The notes beneath the pieces were generated by a model. The model saw only the letters and a program-made list of their open reading frames with translations, had not been told where the DNA came from and searched no databases. The position numbers and the translations under genes were made by a program. A stretch of 25,186 nt of DNA, taken from positions 1-25,186 of IMG/VR virus record IMGVR_UViG_3300043015_002110. One strand, 5' to 3'. Positions 21,513 through 24,450 of this stretch are shown piece by piece (positions within the stretch are counted from its first letter, which is position 1; every line of letters starts with the position of its first letter). Source of the DNA: a virus.

Positions 21513-21521
21513 TGCTCGTTT

Positions 21522-21581
21522 GTATTCAGCTCTATATTTTTGTTACTGTAATGTTACAGTTTCGTATAAAGAGCTGAATAC
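21522..21581 (+). repeat. Nested inverted repeat between the KOW-like gene and tmRNA
   Basis: A perfect 12-base outer stem, GTATTCAGCTCT (21522-21533) with AGAGCTGAATAC (21570-21581), encloses a perfect 7-base inner hairpin ACTGTAA-TG-TTACAGT (21545-21560). No T-tract follows, so it is not a standard intrinsic terminator. It ends two bases before the TTGACA of the tmRNA promoter. It may be a message 3' end protector, an RNase III site, or an operator. Confidence 0.75.
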
Positions 21582-21583
21582 AG

Positions 21584-21613
21584 TTGACATTTGATGTATA
21601 TGTATTATATATA
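21584..21613 (+). promoter_or_regulatory. Promoter of the permuted tmRNA
   Basis: TTGACA (21584-21589) is followed by 18 bases and TATATA (21608-21613). The predicted start, about 21618-21621, coincides with the beginning of the acceptor piece. Confidence 0.75.
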
Positions 21614-21617
21614 TCTA

Positions 21618-21680
21618 GTGGATGTTGATACAAGTCAACGTGCGGACAGGACCCGGGTGCGAATCCCGGCATCTCCACCA
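21618..21680 (+). ncRNA. ssrA: tmRNA acceptor piece (3' half)
   Basis: This part has the T-arm, the acceptor 3' strand and an encoded CCA, but no anticodon arm, so it is not an ordinary tRNA. It begins with a small hairpin GTTGA/TCAAC. ACGTGCGG after it can pair, with one bulge, with CTGACGT of the coding piece to form the long tmRNA helix that replaces the anticodon stem. Confidence 0.85.
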
Positions 21681-21744
21681 AATGTATACTAGTGCCCAGT
21701 TAAGTTTGGGACACATCTGATAAAGTGGCTAGTATACATTTGAT
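21681..21744 (+). other. Intervening segment of the tmRNA precursor
   Basis: The segment begins AATGTATACTAG (21681-21692) and nearly ends CTAGTATACATT (21729-21740), a perfect 12-base inverted repeat. The repeat extends through A21680/T21741 and, with one mismatch, into the acceptor stem. It should hold the two halves together until RNase P and 3' nucleases remove it. Confidence 0.85.
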
Positions 21745-21827
21745 GGGGATGAATAGGATCGACTGACGTATAGAGATGAGAGTAGTTCACCGTGGTGGCT
21801 TACGATAGACAGCCAAAACAAATAAGT

Positions 21828-21872
21828 GCAAACGATAACTTCGCACCATCTGGTTTTGCTCTAGCAGCATAA
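21828..21872 (+). CDS. ssrA: tmRNA proteolysis tag frame
   Basis: The frame GCA AAC GAT AAC... to TAA encodes ANDNFAPSGFALAA. It lies in the coding piece after AAATAAGT, matching the spacing before the resume codon in known tmRNAs. The ANDNFA start matches alphaproteobacterial tags such as that of Caulobacter. The ending ALAA is the classic ClpXP degron. Confidence 0.92.
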   Translation, partial: ANDNFAPSGFALAA

Positions 21873-21946
21873 ACACAGGGAGCTGGCCACTTGCTTAGCA
21901 ACAGGAAACGTGGCACTTTAAACAAAAATAATTAGAAAGGAAAAAG

Positions 21947-22726
21947 ATGTTTAAATTACTTACAGCTACAACCGCGCTCGTTATGGCAGGCGGCGCAGGC
22001 TTTGCAGCAGATCTTACTGGAGAGATTGAAGTTAAGATCGAAGAAAACGCGGCAGGTAACTATGGCGCAACCACATCTTTGGACTTAGGTATGTCTGCTT
22101 TAAACGGAACAGCCTATGGTTGGGTTGATTTAAAAGAAGCCGGCGGCAACATTACTCTTGATGAATATCAAATTGGTACTACCGTTGCAGGCGCAAAGGT
22201 AAGCTTTGGTGACCAAGATAATGTTTGGTTGAGCCGTGAATCGGATGCTGCTCACGCAACTCTTGCGGATCCAGCAATGGCTGAATCTATTCAAGTAGCA
22301 GCTTACGGTGCAACAGTAGGTATTGGTTTTACTGATATTGGCGCAGACGTAACTGATATTGAAAACGTGCAAGGTAAATATGAGCTTGGTCTTGGTACTG
22401 CAGTATCAGTAGCAGCCGCTGGCGATTATAACTTGAACAGTGAAGAATGGGTTTTTGGCGGTCGTGCTGATGCTTGGGTTAACGATGACATTTCTGTAGG
22501 TAGTGCATTTACTTATGGTTCAGCAAATGAGACTGTAGCCTTTGAAAGTGATGTGACTGCATTTGGTATTACCGCATATTTAAACGGTGACCAAGACGAT
22601 ATGGCACAAAACGTAGGCGGATCTTATGCATATGCCTGGAACGGTATGGATCTTGGCGCAGGTGTTAACTATAACCTCGACAAGGAAGAAATGAAACCAA
22701 ACGTTACTGTAGGTTTTGCGTTTTAA
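21947..22726 (+). CDS. Small outer-membrane porin-like beta-barrel protein
   Basis: The 259-residue protein has a signal peptide (MFKLLTATTALVMAGGAGFA, cut after about residue 20 or 21). Alternating amphipathic strands with many Gly, Ala and acidic residues follow, and it ends VTVGFAF, a terminal Phe typical of proteins inserted by the BAM machinery. Its length suits roughly a 12-strand barrel, smaller than trimeric bacterial porins. The family is close to porins of marine alphaproteobacteria. A phage porin could replace a nutrient channel, alter permeability or mask a receptor. A GAAAGG ribosome site precedes ATG 21947. It lies directly after the tmRNA, probably on the same transcript, and ends at a strong terminator. 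Confidence 0.75.
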   Translation: MFKLLTATTALVMAGGAGFAADLTGEIEVKIEENAAGNYGATTSLDLGMSALNGTAYGWVDLKEAGGNITLDEYQIGTTVAGAKVSFGDQDNVWLSRESDAAHATLADPAMAESIQVAAYGATVGIGFTDIGADVTDIENVQGKYELGLGTAVSVAAAGDYNLNSEEWVFGGRADAWVNDDISVGSAFTYGSANETVAFESDVTAFGITAYLNGDQDDMAQNVGGSYAYAWNGMDLGAGVNYNLDKEEMKPNVTVGFAF

Positions 22727-22789: not shown

Positions 22790-22815
22790 GTTTTGATTAA
22801 ACAATGGAGGATGAT

Positions 22816-23367
22816 ATGTCTTTAAAATTGAAAGAACTAACATGGGCACATCACCAAGCAGCTGAACGCCGAGCGTTCGCTAAGATCCTACTAAGCGGCA
22901 AGATTGAACCAAAACTGTATCACAAGTTCCTTTGCTGCCAGTATCTTAATTATCAGATCCTTGAATCATACGCAGAGATTCCATCAAACCTACTACCAAT
23001 CCGTAGAGAATCCCGCATTTGGACCGACATTCGAGAATTGGAAATTGAATACGGTTTAGGACCTGACGGTGATTACCCAAAATCTGTAGAAGAATATACC
23101 AATCATATTAAATCGCTTGCGGAAAAAGGAGACCAACACGGTTTGCTTGCCCATATGTATGTTCGTCATTTTGGTGAATTGCATGGTGGCCAAATGATTA
23201 AAAAGCGAGTTCCTGGCTCAGGAAAAATGTATGAGTTTGAGTTAGAAAAAGAATATCTTATTGAGGAGTTTAGAAAACTGCTCGATGACGATATGGCTGA
23301 AGAAGCAAAGATATGTTTTGATTTTGCGTCTCAGCTATTTGATGAATTGTCTCAAAATATAGATTGA
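22816..23367 (+). CDS. hemO: Biliverdin-producing heme oxygenase
   Basis: ATG 22816 is chosen because ATGGAGG at 22804 is its ribosome site. The 183-residue protein shows the heme oxygenase pattern: H13 in HHQAAE is the expected axial heme ligand (HxxAE), and MYVRHFGELHGGQMIKKRVPG is the distal-helix signature with the GGQ kink. The enzyme opens heme with O2 and reductant, giving biliverdin, CO and iron. A bilin reductase gene two genes downstream would use the biliverdin. A late promoter lies upstream and an early-type promoter overlaps its TGA, so its neighbours can be timed separately. Iron salvage is an alternative role. Confidence 0.93.
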   Translation: MSLKLKELTWAHHQAAERRAFAKILLSGKIEPKLYHKFLCCQYLNYQILESYAEIPSNLLPIRRESRIWTDIRELEIEYGLGPDGDYPKSVEEYTNHIKSLAEKGDQHGLLAHMYVRHFGELHGGQMIKKRVPGSGKMYEFELEKEYLIEEFRKLLDDDMAEEAKICFDFASQLFDELSQNID

Positions 23368-23613: not shown

Positions 23614-23810
23614 CTAGCTATTTGACTGAAGTAAAGGAGGATCCCCTTAACGGGGACCTCTATATTGAATTCCCACCAGCATTTTTAGAGCAATTGGGTT
23701 GGGGAGAGAATGACGAACTGATCTGGGAAAAGACCGAATCTGGTAGTTGGTCAATAAGGAAAAACGAAGATGCATCCATTATGGATCAAGCTAAACAAAC
23801 TAGCGGATAA
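23610..23810 (+). CDS. Small AbrB/MazE-like protein
   Basis: The ATG at 23610 overlaps the previous TGA (ATGA), giving 66 residues; an upstream in-frame ATG has no ribosome site. DLYIEFPPAFLEQLGWGENDELIWEK resembles the swapped-hairpin AbrB/MazE DNA-binding domain (a strand, then P-x-x-x-L-x-x-LGW-x-x-GD, then a strand), with GSWSIRK as the final strand. No toxin partner is nearby, so it may be a regulator or a fold reused for another purpose. Its last 41 bases overlap the bilin reductase gene. Confidence 0.6.
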   Translation: MTSYLTEVKEDPLNGDLYIEFPPAFLEQLGWGENDELIWEKTESGSWSIRKNEDASIMDQAKQTSG

Positions 23811-24450
23811 TATCAGCGAAAAGTTTGACCAACACTTTACAGAATATCATAACGAAAAAATGGACGGTCTTAATTTTAAAGATTGGACAGATCGTTTTTG
23901 GTCTTCTGACGTTGTATATAAAGCACACTTAAAAACAATTGAACCTAAGGATGGTAAAGGTCTATGGCTTATGCACGTAAATGTGTTTCCGCATTCAGGC
24001 ATAGAATTACCAATTCTTGGGTTTGATATTGTTGCAGGTCCAAAAAAGATTACAGGATCCTTCATGGATTTTAGTCCTCTGTATGGATTTTCTCATCCGT
24101 ATAATCAATATATGGAAAAGGCAGTTGAAAATCTTCAGTGGAATAAGCCAAGGGAACTTCCTCCATGGGCAAAAGAGATTTTCTCAAGCGATATGCTCGC
24201 GGTTGGTAATATTAATACAGACGAAGAATTAGATCAGTTCGTTAATATTACAACACATTTGGTTGATTTTTATTTAGACGGTTTAAATGAAAACGCCTTT
24301 AGATCAAACCGTGACACACTCCCACTACTAAATAAGTATTGTGAAAACCAAAAAATGAATCCACATCTTCATAGATCAATTGAAGCAATGGGTATCTCAA
24401 AAGAAGATAAGAACCGATATGTGGATAATGTTTTATTTGAAGAAAGGTAA
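23770..24450 (+). CDS. pcyX: Ferredoxin-dependent bilin reductase (PcyA/PcyX-like)
   Basis: The 226-residue protein has the bilin reductase landmarks: an N-terminal HPLWIKLNKLADNI like the HPLIxxLAxxI of PcyA, then VFPHSGIELPILGFDIVAGP, MDFSPL, RELPPWAKEIFS and a C-terminal NRYVDNVLFE. Several of these match PcyA more closely than PebA, PebB or PebS, as I recall them. The enzymes reduce biliverdin with electrons from ferredoxin. Oceanic phage PcyX makes phycoerythrobilin despite its PcyA-like sequence, so that product is likely but not proved. The start at 23770 keeps the conserved N-terminus and overlaps the upstream gene by 41 bases. No phycobiliprotein gene is present. Confidence 0.85.
   Translation: MHPLWIKLNKLADNISEKFDQHFTEYHNEKMDGLNFKDWTDRFWSSDVVYKAHLKTIEPKDGKGLWLMHVNVFPHSGIELPILGFDIVAGPKKITGSFMDFSPLYGFSHPYNQYMEKAVENLQWNKPRELPPWAKEIFSSDMLAVGNINTDEELDQFVNITTHLVDFYLDGLNENAFRSNRDTLPLLNKYCENQKMNPHLHRSIEAMGISKEDKNRYVDNVLFEER

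Follow-up and report, generated by a model that had tools for sequence, protein, structure and literature searches.

A two-piece, alpha-type tmRNA precedes porin-like and bilin genes in a T4-like virus and carries a tag that appears to belong to the phage lineage

The stretch of DNA analyzed here, referred to as the window, comprises the 25,186 bases of an IMG/VR virus record. Its gene content is T4-like, with topoisomerase II subunits, SbcC/SbcD-like proteins, a DNA polymerase and a late-transcription coactivator. Among named phages, the best counterparts of the DNA polymerase share about 44% identity with it, and the best 40 of its 2,581 matches are all from cyanophages; identity to the enzymes of phages Melnitz, HTVC008M and Mosig is 42, 40 and 39%, respectively. 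At the DNA level, no named phage matched the tmRNA region, and a single 114-bp match to a named phage was found elsewhere. The locus of interest contains a complete, circularly permuted (two-piece) tmRNA followed by a porin-like gene and two bilin genes, with the following features:

21521 to 21582, plus strand: 13-bp perfect inverted repeat (arms 21521-21533 and 21570-21582, exact reverse complements), directly upstream of the tmRNA promoter.
21584 to 21611, plus strand: sigma70-like promoter, -35 TTGACA at 21584-21589, 16-nt spacer, -10 TATATA at 21606-21611; transcription start expected at about 21618.
21618 to 21680, plus strand: tRNA-like 3' piece with a predicted 5' boundary; P2 strand GTGGAT 21618-21623, T-arm 21653-21669, acceptor 3' strand 21670-21676, CCA end at 21680.
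21681 to 21744, plus strand: 64-nt intervening sequence with a 12-bp perfect inverted repeat (arms 21681-21692 and 21729-21740).
21745 to 21914 (mature 3' end approximate), plus strand: mRNA-like 5' piece; acceptor 5' strand 21745-21751, P2 strand GTTCAC 21785-21790, PK1, tag and 3' pseudoknot.
21828 to 21872, plus strand: tag frame ANDNFAPSGFALAA, from resume codon GCA (21828-21830) to stop codon TAA (21870-21872).
21858 to 21868, plus strand: putative degron-codon hairpin, GCT 21858-21860 with AGC 21866-21868, loop CTAGC; wobble covariation in relatives.
21880 to 21914, plus strand: 3' pseudoknot; S1 GAGC 21880-21883 with GCTT 21893-21896, S2 GCCAC 21886-21890 with GTGGC 21910-21914.
21947 to 22726, plus strand: porin-like outer-membrane barrel with a signal peptide, 16 strands and a C-terminal Phe, encoded by the first gene downstream of the tmRNA.
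22804 to 23367, plus strand: heme oxygenase (PF01126).
23770 to 24450, plus strand: ferredoxin-dependent bilin reductase (PF05996), adjoining the heme oxygenase.

ARAGORN called one permuted tmRNA in the window (21584-21963, plus strand) and read from it the tag ANDNFAPSGFALAA. The same region was matched by the Rfam models tmRNA_permuted RF04321 (21618-21872, 111 bits, E 3.4e-21, gathering threshold 47) and alpha_tmRNA RF01849 (21580-21917, 88.9 bits, E 3.6e-23, gathering threshold 50). The tag that the first-pass annotation had placed at 21828-21872 was borne out at its exact coordinates, inside a tmRNA recognized by ARAGORN and both Rfam models, far above chance. The link to alphaproteobacteria, whose absence in a tag comparison that annotation had named as a refutation, holds for the RNA through the alpha-type match. 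The order of the parts is that of a permuted molecule, the T-arm and acceptor 3' piece preceding the acceptor 5' strand and the tag. All seven pairs of the acceptor stem (GGGGATG/CATCTCC) form, including the alanine identity pair G3.U70, and the T-stem pairs as well. A finder that demanded GGGG, ACCA and no fewer than 6 of the 7 acceptor pairs and left U70 free collected 217 unique viral tmRNAs (merged solely if identical); U70 faces G3 in 216 of them, and the single exception looks like a misassigned site. By analogy with known permuted tmRNAs, the intervening sequence would be cut out on maturation. Candidate PK1 pairs, read by eye like those of P2, are CGT 21791-21793 with ACG 21802-21804 and TGGCT 21796-21800 with AGCCA 21811-21815. 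The 3' pseudoknot anchor AGCAACAG was present in 55 of 67 tmRNAs with P[ST]G-type tags, and S1 paired at all four positions in 49 of these 55 when its partner was sought across ten offsets; the S1 types included GGGU/ACCU, GAGC/GCUU, GAGU/ACUU, GGGG/GCCU and GGGC/GCCU. The window RNA resembles the members of RF01849 and RF04321 in its permuted order, its acceptor and T-arm, its ANDN...ALAA tag and a post-tag stretch that closes with a GGCAACAGAA-like motif. It is unlike them in being phage-borne, in its shorter post-tag stretch and in that PK1 is missing in some of its relatives.

The TTGACA/TATATA pair upstream of the tmRNA was omitted by a stricter promoter scan because its second hexamer lacks the final T. 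Pairs of this kind matching at least 9 of 12 positions were present in 165 of 211 stretches upstream of viral tmRNAs, compared with 259 of 1055 shuffles that preserved base composition alone, and 118 of 134 occurrences of TTGAC lay 93-78 nt ahead of the acceptor 3' strand of viral tmRNAs.

Conservation of the tag was analyzed in a tag-independent set of 34 unique tmRNAs (22 distinct tag DNAs) linked to bilin-reductase or DNA-polymerase loci, for which the finder required GC at the start of codon 1 and an A[ASV] end. The proline was present in all 34 tags, P[ST]G in 30 and an ALAA terminus in 32, so that the PSG element described as unfamiliar in the first-pass annotation is recurrent among relatives. 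Across codons 3-9, the 231 (interdependent) pairs of tag DNAs differed 353, 396 and 730 times at codon positions 1, 2 and 3; for the 22 closest pairs the counts were 12, 8 and 37. This third-position excess fits a translated frame and argues against the possibility, set out as a refutation in the first-pass annotation, that it is untranslated. In agreement with this, tag lengths changed by whole codons (for example LF, YV and ESF inserts) among 66 tmRNAs picked for containing P[ST]Gx(x)ALAA, frame retention being partly demanded by the finder; since these 66 were motif-chosen, conservation of P[ST]G and ALAA among them is a selection effect.

A further constraint may act on the codons of the degron itself. 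Among 147 distinct tag DNAs, the first and second Ala codons of ALAA had complementary third bases, which would pair in the putative hairpin, in 116 cases; shuffles averaged 49.9, and 0 of 10,000 reached the observed count. With a single DNA taken per tag peptide the figure was 70 of 92 (mean 31.3, 0 of 10,000), and control pairs gave 50 of 147 and 29 of 147. When shuffling was confined to groups with common first five residues, 131 of 164 were complementary, the shuffles averaging 59.9 (0 of 5,000 reached the count). All four Watson-Crick types were seen at the wobble pair, and RNAalifold selected the identical three pairs in 98 sequences. On the other side, 31 of the 147 were non-Watson-Crick (one a G-U wobble), many of them from other tag types, and in tags without an ALAA end the signal was weaker, with 10 of 26 complementary (mean 5.8; 242 of 10,000 shuffles reached this count). 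Relatedness and recombination were controlled in part in these statistics, and the 44 changes counted among paired wobble types are inflated because the tag recombines. The data suggest that RNA pairing limits the choice of synonymous codons in the degron.

A scan by tag pattern found at least 120 viral loci, at least 20 of them with the exact window tag. The window tag occurred in 17 of the 217 unique viral tmRNAs, 3 of a long type that includes the window and 14 of a short type. The short type comprised 25 unique tmRNAs at 33 loci (L032, L035, L077 and L081 among them), with 46-48 nt from GGGG to the tag compared with about 80-88 nt, and it is considered to be devoid of PK1 because just 10-12 nt or so separate helix P2 from the resume codon. 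ARAGORN called none of L032, L035, L077 and L081, and RF04321 detected the short-type tmRNAs tried (L077, L081 and L417). In E. coli, tagging requires PK1, yet a small hairpin can substitute for it (PMC3968760), and tagging persists in vivo when PK1 is replaced with single-stranded RNA (PMC4236655). As far as these reports go, the need for PK1 has so far been argued through E. coli mutants, and the short type supplies natural two-piece tmRNAs that appear to lack it. In L035 and L099 the short-type tmRNA is followed by a first ORF starting MPTFVYMTACDGCGHCVDICPSDI, whose product resembles the beta subunit of APS reductase.

The two types appear to exchange parts. In the one recombinant dissected, the bilin-reductase carrier L013, the DNA preceding the tag is 97% identical over 62 nt to that of short-type L066, and the tag and tail are 96%, and the next gene region 86%, identical to those of long-type L257; the junction is at the tag, the split falling one base within what is the resume codon in the window. 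Judged from these sequences, the tag is common to related viruses, which appear to exchange it through recombination; in marine T4-like phages it behaves, together with the 3' pseudoknot and the downstream gene, as a module that recombines, and it is a property of the phage lineage rather than of the host.

The genes downstream of the tmRNA were also characterized. The predicted structure of the porin-like protein (pLDDT 83.9) matched the fold of the R. blastica porin (E 3.1e-9), and it is this modeled fold that suggests a porin; sequence searches returned no Pfam family, no useful PDB match, no match in phage records and no convincing match to the porin of HTVC008M. A putative signal peptide was present in 70 of the 170 first ORFs found after 199 tmRNAs examined, by a crude rule that takes in probably non-secreted proteins. 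The bilin reductase of the window is PcyX-like by context; a PcyX-specific catalytic Asp is named in PMC11480375. Its closest counterpart in named phages, 35% identical, is that of Mosig (host SAR11 HTCC1062), whose record holds the tmRNA at 111.6-111.8 kb and the bilin genes at 39.7-40.9 kb. Of 80 bilin-reductase loci, 43 had 3 kb or more of upstream DNA; a tmRNA was found in 40 of these and in 10 of the 37 with less. This count takes tmRNA presence only, because a later GC codon was often taken as the tag start. No tmRNA was detected at L273, L305 and L306 despite at least 3 kb upstream, and therefore the tmRNA is not indispensable. A search of 20 virus records, mostly possibly fragmentary contigs (including contigs of 221, 201, 183 and 183 kb and two isolates), detected no SmpB, and the control search was positive in 10 of 14 genomes. 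The linkage ties a ribosome-rescue RNA to the bilin-gene phages.

The first-pass annotation described a tag that starts like Caulobacter-type tags, ends in ALAA and could name the host lineage or else show that the phage altered it to steer proteolysis. A phage tmRNA of alphaproteobacterial architecture with an ALAA-ending tag stands; the proposal that the tag names the host was not supported. Scans for the tag form in 84,980 species genomes, with patterns limited to the codons used and a TAA stop, found it in no bacterial chromosome (strict, 0 matches; relaxed, 1), a search of plasmid records found only a short T-arm-like stretch, and a literature search for the tag strings gave no usable host tags. 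The single relaxed match (L132), in the metagenome-assembled genome Muricauda sp. TMED12 (G001), was rejected as a host and read as a phage contig because the same contig, C4, carries a T4-like DNA polymerase piece (positions 8-1003). Both C4 and C123 of that assembly carry such pieces, C4 together with a phage-type tmRNA, and they are probably phage contigs binned with the bacterium.

Tags of phages with known hosts also differ from that of the window. The two phages of SAR11 HTCC1062 carry unlike tags, ANFNEYALAA in HTVC008M and, in Mosig, ..GEDNFALAA (ARAGORN) or AFLNGEDNFALAA (our own reading), and Melnitz, which infects the non-alphaproteobacterial OM43 (Methylophilales), has an alpha-type tmRNA with tag ANDNYVPVDYALAA. 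Alpha-type permuted tmRNAs like that of the window, with different tags, were likewise found in DSS3P8 (Ruegeria; ANINNAPMEMAIAA), in MD18 (Phaeobacter) and DSS3_MAL1 (both ANTNAAPMEMAIAA), in RcSimone-Hastad (Rhodobacter; ANDNVRMDAQALAA) and in Phosso (Sinorhizobium; ANDNVSTKVALAA). The tags read by eye in CcrColossus (Caulobacter) and Domovoi (Brevundimonas) were VNDNDAPVMEQLLAA and ASNDNFAAGERVLLAA; the tag of the Caulobacter host, (A)ADNDNFAEEFAVAA, differs from that of CcrColossus. No permuted tmRNA was found in phiM12, Atu_ph07 and phiM9, three of seven named phages searched. Even three virus records whose DNA polymerases are 71-75% identical to that of the window bear other tags, ANDNYKPSGFALAA, ANANRAPKMALAA and ANANRAPAMAIAA. 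Because related viruses share the tag and appear to swap it, with the junction at the tag in one relative, the tag cannot be used to name the host, and more generally host lineage should not be read from phage tmRNA tags. At most, the host can be described as a marine heterotroph, probably an alphaproteobacterium and possibly SAR11.

Overall, it is likely that the locus encodes a working, alpha-type two-piece tmRNA of the phage with the tag of the phage lineage, a reading to which the RNA anatomy, codon pattern, promoter-like signal, linkage and the one recombinant all point at the level of sequence. Expression would start from the host-type (sigma70-like) promoter, and host tRNA nucleases would process the transcript by excising the 64-nt intervening sequence. 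The G3.U70 acceptor would be charged by the alanyl-tRNA synthetase of the host, and, when ribosomes stall on broken mRNA in the course of infection, host SmpB would load the phage tmRNA onto them. The incomplete protein would then gain (A)ANDNFAPSGFALAA and be degraded by host ClpXP through its ALAA end, and the benefit to the phage would probably be that ribosomes and amino acids are kept circulating in the infected cell. As a wider and more tentative proposal, for which the odds are somewhat below even, marine T4-like phages may own a degron module of hairpin-forming tag codons, 3' pseudoknot and attached porin/metabolic cassette that recombines at the tag between tmRNA architectures, natural PK1-less two-piece ones included, so that the tag evolves independently of that of the host.

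Other explanations bear on individual parts of this picture. That the tag is altered by the phage to steer proteolysis is unlikely. Relative to ANDNYAPVALAA, the tag read from the Rfam alpha consensus, that of the window has two extra codons, and the longer linker between the adaptor-binding ANDNFA and the ClpX end ALAA could shift adaptor dependence or protein fate; insertions between SspB and ClpX sites are known to change adaptor dependence, as in the DAS+4 tag (PMC8138137). Against this, the intact ALAA end predicts ordinary ClpXP degradation. We regard as more doubtful still that the tag copies that of a marine alphaproteobacterial host not yet sequenced, which it would name once sequenced. 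The alpha-type architecture would suit such a copy, and an identical tag across phage lineages could mean a common host; the lack of the tag form in any chromosome of the 84,980 species genomes scanned, the unlike tags of the two HTCC1062 phages and of the close DNA-polymerase relatives, and the alpha-type tmRNA of the OM43 phage all speak against it.

A role of tmRNA processing in setting the 5' end and level of the porin/heme oxygenase/bilin reductase mRNA is no less doubtful than host copying. The porin start codon lies 74 nt past the tag stop with no terminator-like site between them on the plus strand, and the order of tmRNA and then bilin genes is conserved, but the genes downstream of the tmRNA vary among phages, and in Melnitz a glutamine riboswitch separates the tmRNA from the next gene. 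Finally, integration at ssrA genes is known, and the authors describing Melnitz raise prophage exchange (PMC9004378), which could make the tmRNA a functionless passenger that imprecise excision carried out of a host ssrA; the codon pattern of the tag, the intact G3.U70 pair, the RNA's own promoter-like signal and its retention at 40 of 43 loci make this very improbable.

Two-piece tmRNAs, mainly in marine phages, have already been reported, 53 of 133 unique phage tmRNA structures being of this kind and 50 of the 53 marine or aquatic (PMC9004378), and a 2025 database holds 97,179 tmRNA sequences, 79 from phages (PMC11915505). To these the window contributes a further member whose tag is distinct. 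It shares with the ssrA genes of Melnitz, HTVC008M and Mosig (PMC9004378) an alpha-type permuted form, a marine T4-like phage background and the ALAA end, and is unlike them in tag, in neighbors (for Melnitz, the glutamine riboswitch and a late-transcription coactivator) and in a DNA polymerase just 39-42% identical. Similarly, the phage hemO-pcyX cassette (PMC11480375) unites heme oxygenase and a ferredoxin-dependent bilin reductase in aquatic phages, whereas an adjoining tmRNA goes unmentioned in the text of that report, in which "tmRNA" has no occurrence. None of the papers listed in a literature search unites tmRNA with phage bilin genes. As far as our searches show, the bilin-gene linkage, the class of 25 unique PK1-less tmRNAs, the degron hairpin and the tag mosaic are new.

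Several named phages showed peculiarities of their own. In CcrColossus (L428, about 1500-1800), the tag frame, read by eye from the usual place, appears to resume at a Val codon, which is unusual for a tmRNA. The intervening sequence of Phosso between CCA and acceptor 5' strand is unusually long, at more than 350 nt (L443, 568-1170), and its tmRNA is missed by ARAGORN. A GOLLD RNA adjoins the tmRNA in DSS3P8 (L427, 875-1308) and DSS3_MAL1 (L445, 1-460), and Domovoi, a phage with a permuted tmRNA, also carries a gene annotated as a putative ribosome-rescue factor (L420, 869-982).
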